A stretch of 44,165 nucleotides of DNA from the NCBI GenBank assembly GCA_017510425.1, contig JAFWNJ010000007.1, positions 1 to 44,165 on the forward strand. Reading direction: 5' to 3'. Shown here in pieces: positions 15,750 to 32,889 of this stretch (positions are counted from its first letter, which is position 1; every line of letters starts with the position of its first letter). The position numbers and the translations under genes were made by a program. The notes under the pieces were generated by a model that was given only the letters and a program-made list of their open reading frames with translations, had not been told where the DNA came from and did not search any database. Source of the stretch: Candidatus Saccharimonadota bacterium. GTDB lineage: Bacteria; Patescibacteriota; Saccharimonadia; Saccharimonadales; Saccharimonadaceae.

Positions 15750-15794
15750 TTCTATTCATTTTTATAATTTTACGTGTTAGAATATTTTCAGGAC

Positions 15795-15884
15795 GGAAAG
15801 GTGGCCGAGTGGTTGAAGGCGCACGCTTGGAAAGCGTGTGACGGGGCAACCCGTTCGCAAGTTCGAATCTTGTCCTTTCCGCCA
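15795..15884 (+). tRNA. tRNA-Ser (anticodon GGA), CCA encoded
   Basis: The acceptor stem GGAAAGG pairs with CCTTTCC, followed by discriminator G and an encoded CCA. The D arm is GCC...GGC, the anticodon arm CACGC-TTGGAAA-GCGTG gives GGA, and a long variable arm (GACGGGGCAACCCGTTC) is typical of class II tRNA-Ser. The T arm has TTCGAAT. A promoter-like TGTTAGAAT lies about 11 bases upstream. The ABC-transporter gene starts 22 bases past the CCA. Confidence 0.96.
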
Positions 15885-15905
15885 TTAAGAAACATGGAGT
15901 AAAAG

Positions 15906-19941: not shown

Positions 19942-19954
19942 AATTTATTCTCCA

Positions 19955-20044
19955 TGGCGGAAGCGAAAGGATTCGAACCTTCGAGACGGTTACCCGCCCA
20001 CACGATTTCGAGTCGTGCGCCTTCAACCACTCGGCCACGCTTCC
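19955..20044 (-). tRNA. tRNA-Ser (anticodon CGA), CCA encoded
   Basis: On the minus strand the acceptor GGAAGCG pairs with CGCTTCC, with discriminator G and CCA. The anticodon arm CACGA-CTCGAAA-TCGTG gives CGA; the long variable arm (GGGCGGGTAACCGTCTC) marks tRNA-Ser. A TGA TATAAT promoter element (20052-20060) ends 7 bases before its 5' end. Confidence 0.96.
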
Positions 20045-20051
20045 GTCTACG

Positions 20052-24047: not shown

Positions 24048-26897
24048 ATGAAATTTGCAAGTAGTTATGAGCCAGGAGAGTATGAGGCGGATATTTATGC
24101 CGCGTGGGAAGCTTCTGGTATTTTTAATCCCAAAATGATTACTAAGCCAGTCGATAACAATAAGAATGGTGTCGACGATAGGACGGAGATAGTAGCGGCA
24201 TCCCCGACTTTCTCCATCGTCATGCCCCCACCGAATGCTAATGGTAATTTGCATATCGGTCATGGCCTCACTATCGCCATTGAAGATTCGCTTACGCGCT
24301 ATCATAGGCTGAAGGGTCTATCGACCTGGTACATTCCAGGTGCCGACCATGCTGGCTTTGAGACCTGGGTGGTCTACGAGAGAAATCTTGAGAAGCAAGG
24401 CCACACCCGTTTTGAGTATAGCCGCGACGAACTTTATGCCCGTGTCTGGGATTTCGTCGCCGAGCAACGTGGCAATATGGAGCTGCAACTTCGTGCCCTC
24501 GGCGCATCCTGCGCATGGGACGATTTGACCTTTACCCTTGATGAAAATGTGATCGACCGTGTTTATACCACCTTTGAGAAAATGTGGAACGACGGCATGA
24601 TTTACAGAGGTGAGAAGCTGGTCAATTTCTGCCCCAAGCATCAGACCGCCTTCGCCGACATCGAAGTCGAACATAAAGATGAACCAGGTACTCTCTGGGA
24701 TATTGAGTATAAAGTAGTAAGCAAAGCCGCGAAATCCTCTTCTGAGGAATCTGTCGGAGGTTACGACCGAGACAGAAGGAGCGCGCCGCCCGTAACGACG
24801 GGCCGGCGCGACTCCGTGTCCGAAGAAGACGGATTCGCGGCTTCAATTACAGTTTCTACCACCCGCCCCGAGACACTATTTGGCGATGTCGCAGTGGCCG
24901 TCAATCCAGATGACCCACGTTACAAGAGCCTAATCGGCCAATATGTTGAACTACCTCTTACGAATGAGATTATTCCCATCATCGCAGACGAGCATGCCGA
25001 TCCAGAATACGGCACTGGCGCAGTTAAGATTACGCCAGCCCACGATTTCGATGATTTTGAAGTAGCAAGTAGACACAATCTGACTCGCAAGCAAGTCATC
25101 TCTGAATCGGGCAGGATGATTAATGTGCCAGAGAAATATCTTGATTTGACCACAGCAGAGTGCCGCAAGCAGGTTCTAGAGGATCTAAAAGAGCAGGGTC
25201 TTTTGAAAGGTGAGCAGAAGATTAACCACTCCGTTGCCCACTGTTATAAATGTGGCACGGTTCTAGAACCTACCTTGAAGGAGCAATGGTTTGTTGACGT
25301 GGAGAAATTAGCCAGTGTGGCAATCTCACACCTTGAAGCTGGTGAAATCAAATTCTATCCCGAAAACAAAGAAAAGGTGGTAATTAATTACCTTAAAGGT
25401 CTAAAAGATTGGAACATTTCTCGCCAGATTCCTTGGGGTATTGCCATCCCGATGTTTAAGAAGGCCGACGATTCGGCTACGGATGAGCCAGAATGGATTT
25501 TTGATCGTCACACTGATCAGAGTGAGATTGAAAGAGCCGGGGTGAAATATATCCGCGATGAGGATACTTTCGACACCTGGTTCTCTTCCAGTCACTGGCC
25601 GATTGTTTGCACCGATTGGACACCTGAGAATTTTAATCCATATTATCCGCTAGATGTCATGGAGACAGCCGCCGATATTCTCTTCGCCTGGGTCTCGCGT
25701 ATGATCATGATTGGCCTATATGTCACAGGCGAAGTGCCGTTTAAAAAAGTTTATTTGCATGGCCTAGTTTTGGATGAGCACGGCCAGAAGATGAGTAAAT
25801 CCAAAGGTAACGTTATTAATCCGATGGAGCTAATCGCAAAATACGGTTCCGATGCCTTCCGCCTGGGTATTTTAAGGGGTCGCTCCGCCGGCATGAACCA
25901 AGCCTTCAGCGAGAACTCCGTCATCGCCGGCCGCAACCTCTGTAACAAGCTCTGGAACATCTCCCGCTTCGTCCAGTCTGTCGTGGATGAGGAAAAGAAG
26001 GCGTCAGAAGATGTTCATTCGAGACCCTTGAGCGACGACGGGAGCGAATGGAGCGAAGCGAGCCCTGTAACGACAGGCGCGAGCGAGCGCGTCGAGAATG
26101 AATCATCTTTGACGCCTTATGAAACTAATTCGATGGGCGAAGACTGGATTTGTCGCGAAATCAACGATTGTTTGACCAAGGTCGATCAGAACATGCGAAG
26201 CTATCGTTTTTCTGAGGCTGTTGAGGTATTGTATCAAACCATCTGGGACAAATACGCCGACTGGTTCCTAGAAAGTCAAAAGATTTATAAGAATGTTAAC
26301 CTCATGAAGACCACACTAGAATCACTGCTAATTGCTCTTCATCCTTTCGCTCCGTTTGTGACTGAGGCCATTTGGCAGAATTTGTCCTGGACGAGTGGAT
26401 TTATCGCGATTGCCGATTGGCCTTCGAGGCTAGAATTTGACCCAATCAGCGCCGAAAACTTTGAAAACATAAGAACTATCGTCTCGGAGGTTAGAACCAC
26501 TTTACAGACCCTCTCAGGCGCCAGCAAGCGTAAAAATTATGGCCTATTATATGACAACGATAGTTTAGTAAAGGATAATCAGCTTCTGATTAAAACTTTA
26601 ACTAGAGTTCCCGAGATTAATAGCCTAGACGGTTCCCCGCGTGGATTGAGGTTGGCCCTCGCAAACCACGAGCTGTATCTCGACGTCCCAGAGAAGGTTG
26701 TAATTGAATTCAAAGAAGCTTTGACCGAGCGCATTCTCTCAATCGGCCGCGAGCTTGATTCCCTCAATGCCCGGCTCATGAACCCGAATTACGTTTCAAA
26801 AGCCCCAGCCCACCTCGTCAAAGAAACCAGAGACCAGATCGAAGAAAAAGAATCGCTCATCGCGAGACTAAAGGGTCAGCTGAACTATATTAAATAG
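24048..26897 (+). CDS. valS: Valyl-tRNA synthetase with two in-frame palindromic insertions
   Basis: This 949-residue class I synthetase charges tRNA-Val. HIGH motif region PPPNANGNLHIGHGL is at about 64-78, GADHAGFETWVVYER at about 103-117, the CP1 editing domain at about 230-380 (STTRPETLFGDVAVAVNP), KMSKS as KMSKSKGNVINP at about 583-594, then the anticodon-binding domain and a C-terminal coiled coil (about 885-945). Two stretches do not belong to the family: residues about 226-265, just before the editing domain, and about 651-690, between the catalytic body and the anticodon-binding helices. Both are encoded by palindromic DNA elements in surface loops. The protein probably still works, since every core motif is intact. 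A strong bidirectional terminator follows. Confidence 0.96.
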   Translation: MKFASSYEPGEYEADIYAAWEASGIFNPKMITKPVDNNKNGVDDRTEIVAASPTFSIVMPPPNANGNLHIGHGLTIAIEDSLTRYHRLKGLSTWYIPGADHAGFETWVVYERNLEKQGHTRFEYSRDELYARVWDFVAEQRGNMELQLRALGASCAWDDLTFTLDENVIDRVYTTFEKMWNDGMIYRGEKLVNFCPKHQTAFADIEVEHKDEPGTLWDIEYKVVSKAAKSSSEESVGGYDRDRRSAPPVTTGRRDSVSEEDGFAASITVSTTRPETLFGDVAVAVNPDDPRYKSLIGQYVELPLTNEIIPIIADEHADPEYGTGAVKITPAHDFDDFEVASRHNLTRKQVISESGRMINVPEKYLDLTTAECRKQVLEDLKEQGLLKGEQKINHSVAHCYKCGTVLEPTLKEQWFVDVEKLASVAISHLEAGEIKFYPENKEKVVINYLKGLKDWNISRQIPWGIAIPMFKKADDSATDEPEWIFDRHTDQSEIERAGVKYIRDEDTFDTWFSSSHWPIVCTDWTPENFNPYYPLDVMETAADILFAWVSRMIMIGLYVTGEVPFKKVYLHGLVLDEHGQKMSKSKGNVINPMELIAKYGSDAFRLGILRGRSAGMNQAFSENSVIAGRNLCNKLWNISRFVQSVVDEEKKASEDVHSRPLSDDGSEWSEASPVTTGASERVENESSLTPYETNSMGEDWICREINDCLTKVDQNMRSYRFSEAVEVLYQTIWDKYADWFLESQKIYKNVNLMKTTLESLLIALHPFAPFVTEAIWQNLSWTSGFIAIADWPSRLEFDPISAENFENIRTIVSEVRTTLQTLSGASKRKNYGLLYDNDSLVKDNQLLIKTLTRVPEINSLDGSPRGLRLALANHELYLDVPEKVVIEFKEALTERILSIGRELDSLNARLMNPNYVSKAPAHLVKETRDQIEEKESLIARLKGQLNYIK
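24724..24843 (+). repeat. In-frame palindromic element 1 (valS)
   Basis: About 120 bases. Outer arms AAGCCGCGAAATCCTCTTC (24724-24742) and the complementary GAAGAAGACGGATTCGCGG (24822-24840) enclose a small stem CTGTC...GACAG and a GC-rich hairpin around CCCGT-AACG-ACGGG (about 24781-24810). It stays open in the valS frame. Confidence 0.85.
26000..26116 (+). repeat. In-frame palindromic element 2 (valS)
   Basis: 117 bases (39 codons). Arms GGCGTCAGAAGATGTTCATT (from 26000) and GAATGAATCATCTTTGACGC (from 26096) pair with one bulge on each side. The interior of 75 bases is almost identical to that of the element at 31707-31823 and includes CCTGT-AACG-ACAGG. Confidence 0.9.
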
Positions 26898-26909
26898 CAA
26901 TTAATAGTT

Positions 26910-26937
26910 AAAAATAGCGCTCTCTAGCGCTATTTTT
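26910..26937. terminator. Bidirectional terminator after valS
   Basis: AAAAATAGCGCT-ctct-AGCGCTATTTTT, a 12-base perfect stem with A and T tracts, serves valS on the + strand and the small transposase remnant on the - strand, whose stop codon lies in the right arm. Confidence 0.9.
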
Positions 26938-27136
26938 TGTCATATTTTTTTAGATCAAAGAGCGGTGTTTTGTCGCCATCGATTATTCCCTGCGCTTTTT
27001 TGAGTAATTTTTGCAGCGCAAATTCCGAAGAAGCCGAGCCAACATGCACAGTGCGAACCACCTTAGTTCCCTGTTTGTAGCAAACCTGTACTCCGGTAGC
27101 ACCCGATGTTGTTTTGAACCGCCTAATATAAGCCAT
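26930..27136 (-). pseudogene. N-terminal fragment of an IS1634/IS4-type transposase
   Basis: The 68 residues (MAYIRRFKTTSGATGVQVCY ... LLKKAQGIIDGDKTP) resemble the N-terminal part of IS1634-family transposases, where a strand-rich stretch YIR..KT.SG...VQV is followed by a helix of the ELLKKA type. The catalytic DDE region is absent and no further homologous coding is visible downstream, so it is a remnant. It nevertheless keeps an intact leaderless promoter (TGG TAAAAT, 6 bases, ATG) and a perfect terminator, and may be expressed as a small protein. Confidence 0.65.
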
Positions 27137-27142
27137 AAATCA

Positions 27143-27151
27143 ATTTTACCA
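27143..27151 (-). promoter_or_regulatory. Leaderless promoter of the transposase remnant
   Basis: Minus strand TGG TAAAAT, six bases (TGATTT), ATG at 27136. Confidence 0.55.
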
Positions 27152-27259
27152 TACAAGGAGATTTGCACCACAATTCCCCACTATTTTTCCACCAAAACAC
27201 AAGCACAATGTGCCTACCATCAGAGTGATACTAGCAACCTTTCGGGCTAGCAACCGCAC

Positions 27260-27288
27260 TTGACAAACCAAATAGCTTCCGCTAAAAT
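27260..27288 (+). promoter_or_regulatory. Consensus promoter of the 27496 gene leader
   Basis: TTGACA (27260-27265), a 17-base spacer and TAAAAT (27283-27288). No start codon lies at the leaderless distance; the next gene begins 200 bases downstream. Confidence 0.75.
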
Positions 27289-27294
27289 CAAAGT

Positions 27295-27495
27295 AACAAC
27301 TCCGGCCGAGCCGAAGTTGGAGGTAGTTTTAGCAACCATGAACATTGATTAGAATCTCCACACTCTACGGGCTAAAACAGGGAAAACTACAAATTTCAAT
27401 CCGACATAGTAATAATTGGCGGTGTTTTTGCATAAATATAATATTATGCGGAAATTGTCAATTTAATTCACAAGTCAATATGATTAAAGGCGATT
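27295..27495 (+). ncRNA. Structured 5' leader of the Fem-like gene or a small RNA
   Basis: After the promoter there is a stem CAACTCCGGC/GCCGAAGTTG (about 27298-27320). The segment GTAGTTTTAGC (about 27325) can pair either with GCTAAAAC or with the nearby AAAACTAC (about 27370-27392); the two pairings exclude each other. A GGCGGTGTTTTT tract follows at about 27418. This looks like an attenuator or riboswitch-type leader, but I cannot match it to a known class. The 27137-27259 part holds a small GCTAG inverted repeat and nothing else I can name. Confidence 0.4.
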
Positions 27496-28428
27496 ATGAA
27501 TATACCAATCACACAATCTAAGGAATGGCAGAAGCTTCAGGACGATTTAGGGGAGAAATCCATTTTCGTCTCTAATGACAAGTATCAGTATCTAGGCATT
27601 ATTAAGAAAACCCCAGTAGGGAAGTATCTCTATTGCCCCTACGGCCCTGTCGCCAAAGACAAAAAAGCATTCGAGCTAGCCATCGATTCCATTACTAATT
27701 ATGCTAAAAAAGAGAAGCTAATCTTCGCGCGAATCGAACCATATGATGAGAAAATGAGCGAAAGTCTCCCAGAAACCGCCCAGAAGTCTAAAAACCTGAA
27801 TCCTAAGGAGACTTGGATCCTAGATCTTAAGGGCAGCGAAGAAGAGCTGAAGCTCAAGCTCCCCGAGAGGCTACTCCGTTATCACAGAGTAGCCGACAAG
27901 AAGGGAATCACCATTACGAAGAGTCACAACCCTGAGGACATCAAACATTTGGTAGATTTGCAGGCTAAGCTCGCCTCCGCTAAAAAAATCAACGTATTCT
28001 CACTAGATTATCTAAAAACAGAGGCTGCTCAGCCGTTTGCCACCACCTACATTGTCAATTATAAAGACCCCGAGAGGGATAAAACGGAAACAATCGCTGC
28101 CGGCCTAGTATTTGACGATAAGGATACAAGGTACAATTTGCAGGGCGCCCAGTCAGACACAGGTCGCAAGCTTCACGCCACAGGAATCCTAACCATCCAG
28201 TTAATTCTAGATGCCAAAGAAAAGGGCTTAGAGAGATTTGACTTCTGGGGTATTGCCCCAGACGATGCGCCAAATGACCACCCATGGAGAGGCTTTACGA
28301 ACTTCAAGAAAACCTTCGCTGGCACGGAGGTCCGTCATGCTGGCACCTATGATTTAGTCATCAATCCGATAAAGTACAAAACTTACCAAATCACGAGAAA
28401 GATAAATTTAATCAAAAGAAAAATCTAA
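27496..28428 (+). CDS. FemAB/FemX-type aminoacyltransferase (peptidoglycan bridge)
   Basis: This 310-residue protein fits the FemABX family, which uses aminoacyl-tRNA to add amino acids to peptidoglycan precursors. The N-terminal GNAT-like half (ITQSKEWQKLQDDLG, GKYLYCPYGPV) and the second half (LPERLLRYHRVADKKGI, NLQGAQSDTGRKLHATGIL, GLERFDFWGIAPDD, WRGFTNFKKTFAGTEV) follow the family layout. The coiled-coil arm of staphylococcal FemA is absent. An AAAGG Shine-Dalgarno sequence lies 7 bases before the ATG. Together with the MurE-like ligase this suggests a modified cross-bridge. Confidence 0.85.
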   Translation: MNIPITQSKEWQKLQDDLGEKSIFVSNDKYQYLGIIKKTPVGKYLYCPYGPVAKDKKAFELAIDSITNYAKKEKLIFARIEPYDEKMSESLPETAQKSKNLNPKETWILDLKGSEEELKLKLPERLLRYHRVADKKGITITKSHNPEDIKHLVDLQAKLASAKKINVFSLDYLKTEAAQPFATTYIVNYKDPERDKTETIAAGLVFDDKDTRYNLQGAQSDTGRKLHATGILTIQLILDAKEKGLERFDFWGIAPDDAPNDHPWRGFTNFKKTFAGTEVRHAGTYDLVINPIKYKTYQITRKINLIKRKI

Positions 28429-28456
28429 AAATCATCAATAAGTATAAAGGAGCAAA

Positions 28457-29341
28457 ATGTCTAGCAAAGTATATTATACCAAGGAAATCACTCCAGAAAG
28501 CCTCATTAAAATCTACGAAGCCCTCGGAGTGAAGCTCACGGGCAAAGTCGGCATTAAGGTGTCGACCGGTGAAACTGGTGCCAAGGGCTATCTTAAAGCC
28601 GATCTGATTGGCCCGCTTGTAAAGAAGTTAAACGGCACCATTATCGAATGTAATACCGCCTATGACGGCACCCACAACACCGTAAAAGACCACATCGAGA
28701 CGGCCAAGAATCACGGCTTTACCAGCATTGCCGATGTGGATATTATGGATGCTGAAGGGGACATTAAGATTCCAGTTAAGAATGGCAAACACCTTAAATA
28801 CGATTTAATTGGGAAGAATTTCGATAATTACGATTCAATTCTCAACTTAGCTCACGGCAAAGGTCACATCATGGGCGGTTTTGGTGCCAATCTCAAGAAT
28901 CAGTCTATCGGCATTGCTTCGCGCAAGGGAAAAGCCTACATTCATTCTGCCGGTAAAACCACCAGCCCGAAACTTTGCTGGATACTAAAGCACGCCCAGA
29001 TTGATTTTATCGAGTCGATGGCTGAAGCCGCAAAAGCGGTCTCCGATCACCTCGAGGAGCAGGGCAAACCCATTACATATATCACTGTTGCTAACGCGAT
29101 TTCGCTTGATTGCGATTGCGCAGCGAACCAAGGCGACCCTGTCATATCCGATATCGGCATATTTGGCTCACTTGATCCCGTCGCCAATGACCAGGCTTTC
29201 ATCGATGCCATCTGGGCCTCCAAGGAGCCAGGTGCTGAAGCTCTGAAGGAACGCATTGATACTCGCGAAGGTCGCGCCATTCTCCCTTACGCCGAATCCC
29301 TCGGCCTCGGCTCCTGTAACTATGACTTAATTAAGATATAA
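28457..29341 (+). CDS. DUF362-domain protein
   Basis: This 294-residue protein matches the DUF362 family: GKVGIKVSTGETGAKGYLK (about 29-47), a central NLAHGKGHIMGGFGANLKNQ (about 131-150), and CDCAANQGDPVISDIGIFGS (about 219-238) with DPVANDQA. The C-terminal ferredoxin domain found in many relatives is missing, but Cys pairs remain (DCDCAANQ). The family is tied to iron-sulfur chemistry, without a firm reaction. GGAG lies 8 bases before the ATG. Its stop codon overlaps the first operator of the downstream regulator. Confidence 0.82.
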   Translation: MSSKVYYTKEITPESLIKIYEALGVKLTGKVGIKVSTGETGAKGYLKADLIGPLVKKLNGTIIECNTAYDGTHNTVKDHIETAKNHGFTSIADVDIMDAEGDIKIPVKNGKHLKYDLIGKNFDNYDSILNLAHGKGHIMGGFGANLKNQSIGIASRKGKAYIHSAGKTTSPKLCWILKHAQIDFIESMAEAAKAVSDHLEEQGKPITYITVANAISLDCDCAANQGDPVISDIGIFGSLDPVANDQAFIDAIWASKEPGAEALKERIDTREGRAILPYAESLGLGSCNYDLIKI

Positions 29342-29423
29342 AGTATACATATTCACGGAAAAAGTGTACATAAAGTATACATGTACTTGACAAAAGTATA
29401 CATATTTGCTAATATGTATACAT
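29341..29423. promoter_or_regulatory. Operator array of AAGTATACAT sites over a promoter
   Basis: Sites: AAGTATACAT at 29341, 29373 and 29394, AAGTGTACAT at 29362, a reversed half-site ATGTACTT at 29381, and a perfect palindrome ATGTATACAT at 29414-29423. Start-to-start distances are 21, 11, 21 and 20 bases, so the sites lie on one face of the helix. They cover -35 TTGACA (29387-29392), -10 TAATAT (29410-29415) and the ATG. Confidence 0.85.
29387..29415 (+). promoter_or_regulatory. Leaderless promoter of the 29422 regulator
   Basis: TTGACA, 17 bases, TGC-TAATAT, six bases (GTATAC), ATG at 29422. The best-formed promoter of the leaderless set. Confidence 0.85.
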
Positions 29424-30453
29424 GACCACCGTAAAAGAAAAGATCTATCAAATACTTTTTAAACATCCCGGTCTTTCTGCTATCCAACTCGGCGAGAAGA
29501 CTGCACTCGGTAATCGTACCTATATCAGCAAGAATCTAGCCGAGTTAATCAAGGAAAACCGTGTTCGCTCCGAGAAGAATGGTCGCAATGTCACTTATTA
29601 TGTATCTGATAAAATTATTGCCCTCGAAGAAAACCTTAACCTAATCGGACTAAAGGAGGACGAAATTTGGACCAAAGTCCGTAAAACTACCACCTTCCTA
29701 AACGACCTCACCGAAAACGCCGAAAACATTCTTTATTTTGCCTTTACCGAGATGTTAAACAACGCCATCGACCATTCTCGCTCCGGCGTTGGCTACGTTA
29801 AAATTTGGCTAGAAGATGACGAGCTTAAATTCATCGTTAAAGACAATGGCGTTGGCGTTTTCAAAAACGTCATGATTAGTCGTAAGATAGATAACGAACC
29901 AGATGCCGCGAGGGAACTAATTAAGGGAAAGCTCACCACTCAGCCGGGTTGGCATTCGGGCGAGGGCATTTTCTGGACATCTAAAATCGCCGATCGATTT
30001 TCGCTTAAAAGCTACGACTACGAGCTTATCGTGGACAATACTATAAACGACTATACTATTCAAAAAACCGAACGCCCCACAATCGGCACTGAGGTCACCT
30101 TTGAGATCGCTAAAAACACCGACAAATCCCTGCAGAAACTTTTCCGCAGCTTCTCTTTCGATCACCAAACCCTTAGCCTAGATACCACAGTAATCCCAGT
30201 TAAGTTATTTAACGAAGGCGAAATTTGGATCTCTCGTTCTCAAGCCAAAAAGCTTCTTACGGGCCTCGATCAGTACAAAAAAATCATTTTTGATTTTGCT
30301 GGTATCGAAGTTATTGGTCAGGCCTTTGCCGACGAAATCTTTCGCGTTTTTAGTATTCATCACCCCGATATAGAACTAGAGCCAATCAATATGTCTGACT
30401 CCGTCAAACTTATGGTCTCCCATGCCCAACACGACCCCACCGGCCGCGAATAG
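29422..30453 (+). CDS. wHTH - histidine-kinase-like ATPase - DUF4325 regulator
   Basis: This 343-residue protein has three parts. A winged helix-turn-helix spans about 1-70 (YQILFKHPGLSAIQLGEKTA, ISKNLAELIKENRV). A GHKL-type ATPase domain spans about 85-235 with N-box TEMLNNAIDHSRSGVG, G1 DNGVGV and G2 GWHSGEGIFW. A C-terminal DUF4325/STAS-like domain spans about 255-335 (ISRSQAKKLLTGLDQYKKII, DFAGIEVIGQAFADEIFR). No phospho-acceptor His box or sensor is seen, so it resembles anti-sigma-like kinases or ATP-dependent switches rather than a classical sensor kinase. Its promoter is packed with repeated palindromes, so autoregulation by the wHTH is likely. Its targets and signal are unknown. Confidence 0.85.
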   Translation: MTTVKEKIYQILFKHPGLSAIQLGEKTALGNRTYISKNLAELIKENRVRSEKNGRNVTYYVSDKIIALEENLNLIGLKEDEIWTKVRKTTTFLNDLTENAENILYFAFTEMLNNAIDHSRSGVGYVKIWLEDDELKFIVKDNGVGVFKNVMISRKIDNEPDAARELIKGKLTTQPGWHSGEGIFWTSKIADRFSLKSYDYELIVDNTINDYTIQKTERPTIGTEVTFEIAKNTDKSLQKLFRSFSFDHQTLSLDTTVIPVKLFNEGEIWISRSQAKKLLTGLDQYKKIIFDFAGIEVIGQAFADEIFRVFSIHHPDIELEPINMSDSVKLMVSHAQHDPTGRE

Positions 30454-30465
30454 GCCACTTTTTTG

Positions 30466-30474
30466 TGCTACAAT
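30466..30474 (+). promoter_or_regulatory. Leaderless promoter of the P-type ATPase
   Basis: TGC TACAAT, six bases (AATCCT), then ATG at 30481. Translating through it gives CYNNPM, the same signature as at 20087. Confidence 0.65.
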
Positions 30475-30480
30475 AATCCT

Positions 30481-32889
30481 ATGAATTTACAAGGTCTCAC
30501 CACTAAGCAAGTCGCAAGGAAAATCGCCGAGGGCAAGGTTAACCAAACCTCTCGCAAGAATCAGAACACCACCCTAAAAATCATCCTCAAAAACACTCTC
30601 ACCATCTTCAATCTCGTCAATCTCATCCTCGCTCTCATGATTCTCGCCGTCGGCTCTTACAAGAACCTCCTCTTCGTCCTCATCGCCATCGCAAACACCC
30701 TCATTAGTATCGTCAACGAAATCCGCGCCAAACGCACCGTCGACAAAATGCGCCTCATCTCCGAGCAGCAGCCCACTGTCATTCGTAACGGCAAGCCAGT
30801 CCAAATCAACCAAAACCAAATCGTCGAAGGCGATCTCCTCGTCTTCTCCCTCGGCGACCAAATCATCGTCGATAGCGAAATCGAGGAGGGCAACGTCGAA
30901 GTCAACGAATCTTTCATCACCGGCGAACAGGACAATATCGAAAAACACCCCGGCGACAAACTCATCTCTGGCTCATTTATTGTTTCCGGCACCTGTAAAG
31001 CCACTGCCACCGCGGTCGGCGCGAAGACAGAGCTCAGCAAAATCGAAAAATCCGCCCATACCATTAGGACCGCCGACTCCAAACTCTTCAGCCTAATGAA
31101 TAACATCGTGAAATACATCGGCATTGCGCTAATTCCCATCGGCGCCCTGGTGCTCTGGAGCCGTTTTCGTGTCGAAAGCAACGATACCACCACGGCCATC
31201 ACGAGCACGGTCGCTTCGCTTATCAATATGATTCCGGAGGGTCTCATTCTCCTGACCAGTTCCGTTCTCGCCCTCGCCACTATCCGCCTCAGCAAGAAAA
31301 AGGTCCTCGTCCAGGATCTCTATTCCATCGAAACTCTCGCCAGGGTGGACACCATCGCTCTGGATAAAACCGGCACCCTCACCACGGGCAAAATGACCGT
31401 GCATGATTCTACTGCCACGGAAAAATCCTTTGAAAGGGCCCTATTATCGATTCTAACGCACCAAACTACCGAAAACGCAACCGTAAGCGCTTTAAAGCAA
31501 AAGTTCCTTAAAACCACCAAATTTGAAGAAATAGAGGGCATTACGGACATTATTGATTTCTCATCCGACCGCAAGTGCTCTGGAATCAAAACCAAAGATG
31601 CCACCTACCTCCTCGGCGCCATCGAATTCCTCACCGACGACGAATCGATCATCAATCAGGTCAAATCTATTTCTGGAGAATATCGCACCCTGGCAGTTAT
31701 TAAGAAGATGTCAAAAAACGTTCATTCGAGATCCTTGAGCGACGACGGGAGCGAATGGAGCGAAGCGAGCCCCGTAACGACGGGCGCGAGCAAGCGCATC
31801 GAGATTGAATCGTTTTTGACATCTCCTGACAAGCTTCTTGGTTTCATTCGTCTCGAAGACGAAGTCCGCCCCGATGCCAGAAGAATCATCAATTATTTTT
31901 ATAAAAATGACATCGACATCAAAATCATCTCTGGTGACGACCTTGAGGCAGTGTCTTCCATCGCATCCCGCGTGGGCGTGAAGAATATTCATGGTTTCAA
32001 TCTCTCCTCCGAGAAGAATCACGATTACGACCATCTCGCCAAGGAATATAATGTCTTCACCCGTGTCACTCCCGCGGAGAAAAAGGAACTAATCACGGCC
32101 TTTAAAAAGCAGGGAAGAACCATCGCCATGACCGGTGACGGCGTGAACGACATCCTCGCCATGAAGGAGGCTGATGTTAGTCTAGCCATCGGTGAAGGCG
32201 CCGATGCCGCTCGTCGCTCCGCCAAGCTTGTTCTTTTGGACTCTGACTTCGCCGCCGTCCCATCGATTATCGATGAAGGTCGTCAATCTATCAATAACCT
32301 CGAACGCTCCACCGCGCTTTTCCTGGCCAAGACCGTCTATGCCAGTATTCTTGCCGTAATTTTCATCTTCGTCCCTATCAAATACCCATTTTCGTCGCCG
32401 GTCGAGATGTCGCTTCTAAATTTTGCCTGCATTGGTTTTCCTGGTCTCGTTCTCTCTCTGGAACATAACACCGACCGCATCAAAAATCGTTTCACACGCA
32501 ACATTATCGAATATTCTCTCCCTGTTGGCTTAACTATTTCCATTTCCATGCTCACCATCTCCCTGCTCGCCCATTTTGGCATTTTCCCACACTACGACCT
32601 AGCCACCACCGCAATCTTTGTGACCTTCACAATTGACCTTATTCTCATCTATTGGATTTCCAAACCGCTCAACGTCCTCCGCGCCAGCCTCCTCTTCACC
32701 ATCATCGGCATCATGGTGGGCGCCTTCCTGATCCCGTTCTTCCACAATTTCTTCGATTTTGTCTTCCTCAGCTCCAATGGCCTTATTGCCACGCTTATCG
32801 CCATTGTCTCGTCTATCATTCTCTTTGAAATCCTAAGGACTGTCATGAAGAGAATCTCCGCCCACATTTTCGACCAGGGCGACATCTAG
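30481..32889 (+). CDS. P-type cation ATPase with an in-frame palindromic insertion
   Basis: This protein of about 802 residues pumps cations at the cost of ATP. The actuator TGEQ is at about 147-150 (FITGEQDNIEKHPGD), membrane motif MIPEGLILLTSS at about 251, phosphorylation site DKTGTLTTGK at about 295-304, and MTGDGVNDILAMKEADVSLA at about 550-569. The C-terminal half has six hydrophobic segments. It looks like the CtpE/MgtA-like group with PEGL in the ion site, which suggests Ca2+ or a related cation, but the ion is not certain. Residues about 410-447 come from a 117-base palindromic element placed in a loop of the cytoplasmic nucleotide-binding part. The start is the ATG at 30481; an upstream TTG lies in the promoter. 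Confidence 0.9.
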   Translation: MNLQGLTTKQVARKIAEGKVNQTSRKNQNTTLKIILKNTLTIFNLVNLILALMILAVGSYKNLLFVLIAIANTLISIVNEIRAKRTVDKMRLISEQQPTVIRNGKPVQINQNQIVEGDLLVFSLGDQIIVDSEIEEGNVEVNESFITGEQDNIEKHPGDKLISGSFIVSGTCKATATAVGAKTELSKIEKSAHTIRTADSKLFSLMNNIVKYIGIALIPIGALVLWSRFRVESNDTTTAITSTVASLINMIPEGLILLTSSVLALATIRLSKKKVLVQDLYSIETLARVDTIALDKTGTLTTGKMTVHDSTATEKSFERALLSILTHQTTENATVSALKQKFLKTTKFEEIEGITDIIDFSSDRKCSGIKTKDATYLLGAIEFLTDDESIINQVKSISGEYRTLAVIKKMSKNVHSRSLSDDGSEWSEASPVTTGASKRIEIESFLTSPDKLLGFIRLEDEVRPDARRIINYFYKNDIDIKIISGDDLEAVSSIASRVGVKNIHGFNLSSEKNHDYDHLAKEYNVFTRVTPAEKKELITAFKKQGRTIAMTGDGVNDILAMKEADVSLAIGEGADAARRSAKLVLLDSDFAAVPSIIDEGRQSINNLERSTALFLAKTVYASILAVIFIFVPIKYPFSSPVEMSLLNFACIGFPGLVLSLEHNTDRIKNRFTRNIIEYSLPVGLTISISMLTISLLAHFGIFPHYDLATTAIFVTFTIDLILIYWISKPLNVLRASLLFTIIGIMVGAFLIPFFHNFFDFVFLSSNGLIATLIAIVSSIILFEILRTVMKRISAHIFDQGDI
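31707..31823 (+). repeat. In-frame palindromic element 3 (P-type ATPase)
   Basis: 117 bases. Arms GATGTCAAAAAACGTTCATT (from 31707) and GATTGAATCGTTTTTGACAT (from 31803) pair with a bulge on each side. The 75-base interior differs from element 2 at about five positions, two of which form a compensatory pair in the apical stem (CCTGT/ACAGG becomes CCCGT/ACGGG). Confidence 0.9.

Follow-up and report, generated by a model that had tools for sequence, protein, structure and literature searches.

Protein-coding palindromic elements of a gut Saccharibacterium combine a near-constant core with arms that mirror the host flank

A gut Saccharibacterium was found to harbor a dense system of protein-coding palindromic elements, which work like the Rickettsia palindromic elements (RPEs) and differ from them by arms corresponding to the flanks of the host locus. 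Nearly all copies lie within essential genes, and these genes are left unbroken. Because the arms of each copy mirror its own surroundings, the pattern suggests that the elements spread and persist through errors in DNA copying rather than by means of a normal transposase. The reading considered most probable (roughly 0.7) is that the copies form a non-autonomous, selfish palindromic element group that belongs to one Nanosyncoccus-like family of Saccharibacteria and in which one arm was copied from the flank by template switching during replication. How RPE-type elements spread without a known transposase has been an open question since their description in 2000. Here, traces of the process can be read from a near-constant core, arms derived from the host flank, the polarity of the arms, a bulge at the junction, and the inversion of cores, in a set of ∼170 related genomes that includes occupied as well as empty alleles.

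The window, that is, the whole stretch of 44,165 nt that was analyzed, contains three copies of 117–128 nt (Table 1). An earlier note, made from the sequence alone, had placed palindromes at 24724, 26000, and 31707; the positions were right and all three copies are in frame. The apical core said to be shared by them was recovered as motif CCYGTAACGACRGG, which had exactly three occurrences without mismatch, compared with a mean of 0.40 in shuffled sequence when up to two mismatches were allowed. The second and third copies, described as having nearly the same interior, were 94% identical over the 68-nt interior (87% over 128 nt), and the arms indeed differed between copies but were complementary within each of them. 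When aligned to ValRS from T. thermophilus (1GAX, 1gax_A), site 1 of valS corresponds to a short turn (residues 204–210) and site 2 to the linker after residue 601, between the catalytic and the anticodon-binding domains. Element 3 lies in the region of the ATPase that matched the HAD-hydrolase domain in a Pfam search. The site of element 1 is empty in the nearest relative, G100 (locus L144), and in many ValRS homologs.

Table 1. Elements and host genes in the window (positions are those of the window).
Feature	Position	Strand	Details
Element 1, type II, inside valS site 1	24723..24844	+	5′ arm 24723-24743; 3′ arm 24824-24844
Element 1, core parts	5′ hairpin 24759-24768; apex 24789-24802	+	5′ hairpin GGTTACGACC; apex CCCGTAACGACGGG
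Element 2, type I, inside valS site 2	25998..26118	+	5′ arm 25998-26020; apex CCTGTAACGACAGG 26064-26077; 3′ arm 26096-26118
Element 3, type I, inside P-type ATPase gene	31703..31827	+	5′ arm 31703-31727; apex CCCGTAACGACGGG 31771-31784; 3′ arm 31803-31827
valS (valyl-tRNA synthetase, 949 aa), host of elements 1 and 2	24048..26897	+	Pfam PF00133, PF08264
P-type (E1-E2) ATPase gene, host of element 3	30463..32889	+	Pfam PF00122, PF00702

The family is larger than these three elements, with ∼25 copies in the 0.84-Mb genome. The 68-nt interior, used as blast query against the assembly (840 kb, 30 contigs), returned 27 matches, ∼25 of which proved to be real copies on reading; L024 and L027 were rejected as chance matches. 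Whereas three copies are intergenic (L007, L012, and L022), 22 of 25 are located inside ORFs, in several reading frames, sense as well as antisense, and all 22 are in frame and without stop codon. Their host genes, as named by inspection of the protein sequences and not by family search, include those for ObgE (two), ArgRS (two), IleRS, LeuRS, AlaRS, MnmA (two), GatA, a TypA-like GTPase, and TatD. In-frame insertion into genes is possible because the apex lacks stop codons in five of the six frames. With respect to the host gene, 19 of the 22 intragenic copies are in sense and three in antisense orientation; across the coding copies of family A, the ratio is 69 to 30. This bias is not owed to stop codons, because the apex can be read through in every antisense frame.

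Of 99 genomes from the genus, 76 contain copies; when 393 genomes from across the order were sampled, copies turned up in this genus and otherwise only in three genomes from other genera of the same family. The named relatives found via ValRS are mostly Saccharibacteria from the ruminant gut, including Candidatus Nanosyncoccus alces. For ValRS, MnmA, and ObgE, both occupied and empty sites were found. Searching the genome and its relatives for the interior, and comparing occupied with empty sites and with homologs lacking the insert, had been proposed in the earlier note, and both approaches bore fruit: the family has other members, its arms covary, and the inserts are missing from many homologs, each of which is the opposite of what the note had named as speaking against its reading.

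Read in element orientation, the 5′ arm of a copy is followed by a small 5′ hairpin, which exists in two versions (GGTTACGACC and CGCGACAACGGGAGCG); the apex CCCGT-AACG-ACGGG comes next, and then the 3′ arm. The core is near-constant (99% identity over 77 nt between L012 and L017). The outer arms, which are sequence of the locus and not of the element, have nothing in common across most copies. Within the 24 copies of this genome that were compared, the complementarity score of the two arms averaged 33.6 for arms of the same copy and 12.9 for arms of different copies (SD 2.3, maximum 23), and the copy's own right arm was the best complement of its left arm in 23 cases; the exception, L014, has decayed arms and fails the self-complement test. 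The cross-copy arm score was at background, and shared terminal inverted repeats borne by the element were not found among the copies of this genome. About two thirds of the copies have one extra nucleotide in the 5′ arm, ∼11–15 nt outside the core; in 111 oriented copies, single-nucleotide extras at 9–22 nt were found 71 times on the 5′ arm versus 25 times otherwise, and were mostly purines. The fetched loci also contained 217 long-arm hairpins, compared with two in triplet-shuffled sequence; they represent several unrelated core families, and a few may be ordinary terminators. Besides the family described here, there are, accordingly, many further palindromic families, with the same locus-specific arm behavior.

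The relation between arms and core is best seen at one ObgE site, where the same core type is present in four species. Among 22 arm pairs, 11 showed double changes, and 96.6% of the cells were paired; the covariation score was reached by none of 500 shuffles, and sliding the arms by a single column collapsed the signal. A second covariation set, of six, behaved similarly. The matched changes include synonymous ones in the native codons for LIAD, with mirror-image counterparts in the non-native arm. From species to species, the arms of a given site vary by such matched double changes while the core stays near-constant, the divergence at the ObgE site being 0.08 for the core, 0.35 for the arms, and 0.27 for the host gene. 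Moreover, L220 and L212 have an identical core between different arms, L220 and L235 have shared arms around different cores, and the element types are scattered over the (poorly resolved) host-gene tree. Core and arms, then, have had separate histories: elements entered the site more than once, or else cores were exchanged by recombination with the arms being set locally.

Between this genome and G100, the core of the AlaRS element and that of one MnmA element are inverted between corresponding arms, and MnmA of G100 has an extra, freshly mirrored arm. Core inversion is the signature of template switching between inverted repeats, which is documented to homogenize arms and invert spacers in coding inverted repeats (PMC8604942) and to create as well as maintain hairpins (PMC8794818). 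In AlaRS (L087, ∼2650–2925), the 5′ hairpin region of the element harbors a second palindrome, CGAAACGCTTGCGTTTCG, which is unrelated to the element and underwent the inversion along with it. MnmA (L087:4442–5719) and its counterpart in G100 (L130) share a long, near-identical tract around element L023, the rest being ∼80% identical; this tract probably reflects recent recombination between species, which brought the element along.

The origin of the arms was read from pairs of empty and occupied alleles. G100 (∼80% DNA identity, 89% in part of MnmA) has few copies, and most sites occupied in this genome are not occupied by the family there. In ObgE (L003), the native right flank encoding KDLIADLTHDG is common to both genomes; the left arm, AAAGTCAGCGAATTAGGTCCTTTT, repeats this flank in reverse and has no equivalent in G100. 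In TatD (L019), one arm continues the native left flank and the other arm is its inverted copy. Similarly, the empty ObgE allele L175 reads ...GTCAACC followed by AAGAAAGAATCTTTTTAGCTGAT, and in the occupied L215 the right side is retained up to the core border, with an inverted copy added on the left. An empty homologous site was available for 82 copies, 16 of which were informative for the native arm: it was at the 3′ side of the element in 13 and at the 5′ side in three (p = 0.02; copies antisense to the gene included), a count that is weak in numbers and composed of partly dependent cases, most other pairs being too diverged to read. That the native arm is always at the 3′ side is weakened by the three counter-cases and by the ObgE L220 group, the 5′ arm of which matches the empty allele L172 (a counter-case unless L172 is a relic). 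A direct target-site duplication was not seen in the readable pairs, where arm ends are fuzzy. Judged from these alignments, one arm in the readable cases is native host flank, usually at the 3′ side, and the other is an inverted copy. The proposal that one arm is copied from the other is supported by these pairs and by the inverted cores. The earlier note had tied this copying to movement; it appears to take place at insertion and also later, and the sequence copied is the flank of the host target, not the element.

According to the template-switching mechanism proposed here, the mobile unit would be a core of ∼60–80 nt, comprising the 5′ mini-hairpin and the CCCGT-AACG-ACGGG apex; the latter, being open in five of the six frames, would allow the core to be accommodated by genes in phase and to appear in the protein as an added surface loop. 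We infer that the nascent strand of DNA folds back at the hairpin and uses the flank as template; such template switching, within one molecule or between two, would occur when the core arrives and again and again later, so that mutations arising on one side would be copied to the other. The regular bulge, ∼12–14 nt outside the core, may mark the junction of the copied arm with the native left flank, and exchange of cores by recombination between species and between copies probably contributes. The bias toward sense orientation is left unexplained by template switching. Tentatively, the elements could represent a class in which every insertion generates an inverted copy of the target flank (∼12–25 nt, with a fixed junction bulge) using host replication enzymes only, without transposase and without terminal repeats of its own. 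On the main reading, essential proteins encoded by these tiny genomes would be reshaped at insertion hotspots by template switching during replication.

As an alternative to arm copying, the note had considered selection for the hairpin, which is disfavored in its RNA form. Selection for pairing in the mRNA predicts a clear excess of G·U. In 158 coding hairpins, however, G·U mismatches of the arms were not more frequent than A·C on the coding strand (126 versus 153), so selection for an mRNA hairpin is unlikely to be the cause; in addition, the arms of a copy with a decayed apex (L025 in G100) still changed together. The excess in family A alone, on the element strand (G·T 40 versus A·C 23), is slight and leaves some room for a small role of hairpin selection. 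More generally, the whole hairpin might be selected as mRNA or single-stranded DNA structure, with the arms covarying by ordinary compensatory substitutions. The strong covariation with its many Watson–Crick double changes, the conserved apex, and the mild G·T excess would be in line with this explanation, which is nevertheless unlikely, given that near-identical cores carry arms without common sequence and that occupied sites are empty in many relatives, meaning that no function is required. Strong covariation in a hairpin, therefore, need not imply RNA function. A rather unlikely scenario is that elements of the MITE or REP type, equipped with terminal inverted repeats and mobilized in trans by a transposase, preferentially entered pre-existing native hairpins, the arms being the old target stems. 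It would account for L058 and L231, where both outer arms align with the empty allele (12/13 and 8/9, respectively), and Yersinia YPAL does target areas of dyad symmetry (PMC2229807); yet the empty allele of the clean pairs has no inner 5′ arm, and at most of the empty ObgE sites that were folded, long native hairpins matching the arms were not evident. Furthermore, the Y1 transposase (RAYT/IS200, PF01797) is absent from this genome and from 96 of 99 relatives, with control genomes being positive, and RAYT/IS200 was rejected as the driver.

That 3′ flanks are native and 5′ arms copied would also fit target priming from the 3′ side by an element RNA, the cDNA of which snaps back to copy the flank with the help of a resident reverse transcriptase. 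RVT_1 (PF00078) genes are carried by 60 of the 99 genomes, this one included, and the sense bias of 69:30 would agree with such a retro-element, which we still regard as quite improbable: no reverse transcriptase is known to be linked to the elements, and the element-rich genomes G003, G036, G054, G081, and G095 gave no RVT_1 match, for which reason RVT_1 was rejected as a necessary driver; a reverse transcriptase that was lost or is divergent would escape this comparison. Small introns or byp-like translational bypassing hairpins would fit the location of the hairpins inside conserved genes, but splicing or bypassing would remove the constraint by which 22 of 22 intragenic copies keep the frame without a stop, and this possibility appears very remote. 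In a search of 198 genomes from the order, no match to the palindrome nuclease SbcD exceeded the cut-off (controls were positive), and the lack of a recognizable SbcD is a plausible permissive condition for palindromes; as the sole cause it was rejected, since the apparent loss is order-wide while the elements are confined to one family.

Reading the copies as RPE-like, that is, as dispersed, in-frame, protein-coding palindromic elements, is well supported. RPEs and the palindromic elements of Wolbachia are 105–146 bp long, dispersed, fall into several families, and lie in frame in conserved genes; the translated RPE insert is tolerated, no dedicated transposase is known, and different families occupy the same site in related species (PMC2229807, PMC3767692). 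The present elements resemble RPEs as palindromes of ∼100–150 bp with many dispersed copies, in frame in conserved genes and absent from orthologs. However, the terminal inverted repeats of RPEs are, as reviewed, ∼12 bp long and element-borne, whereas the arms of 20–45 bp found here are owned by the locus and mirror the host flank. RPEs also belong to a different phylum, and the two are set apart by descriptions in reviews and genome papers rather than by sequence comparison. The elements share with GTAG/CGTC-tagged REPs the nature of small dispersed hairpins, and CGTC REPs include RPE-4 and RPE-6, also without dedicated transposase (PMC3733652). Unlike REP/RAYT systems, the Saccharibacteria elements are longer, mostly intragenic, and not accompanied by a Y1 transposase; by inspection, the foot of the hairpin has no unpaired GTAG/CGTC tag, CGTC occurring only inside the apical stem-loop.

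Homogenization of arms, inversion of the spacer (here, the core), and multi-nucleotide changes in coding inverted repeats are features in common with template switching at quasipalindromes (PMC8604942, PMC8794818). Quasipalindromes, though, are short local inverted repeats, whereas here a dispersed family supplies the hairpin and gains 20–45 bp of host-derived arms. Long inverted repeats in translated genes are likewise reported for the coding palindromes of Nematomorpha mitochondria (PMC6649704); there, conserved protein is encoded by the two arms alike, and the abstract mentions no dispersed core, while in the present elements one arm is usually non-native filler. An account of such elements in CPR bacteria was not found in the open-access literature, which does not prove its absence.

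Some further repeats were observed. L102:1280–1469, L117, and L125 contain other palindromic families, in frame or near genes, with locus-specific arms; one of these families carries TTTGAATTTTCAACACGTATATTCCTGACG and another encodes FRSAAARELAxEPxGDGxERRDPE. Within the window, 15792–15891 and 19948–20047 form an inverted pair of 100 nt (79% complementary), 4 kb apart and near gene starts, and a tandem repeat of 32 nt (78%) occupies 29338–29401 in a short intergenic gap.
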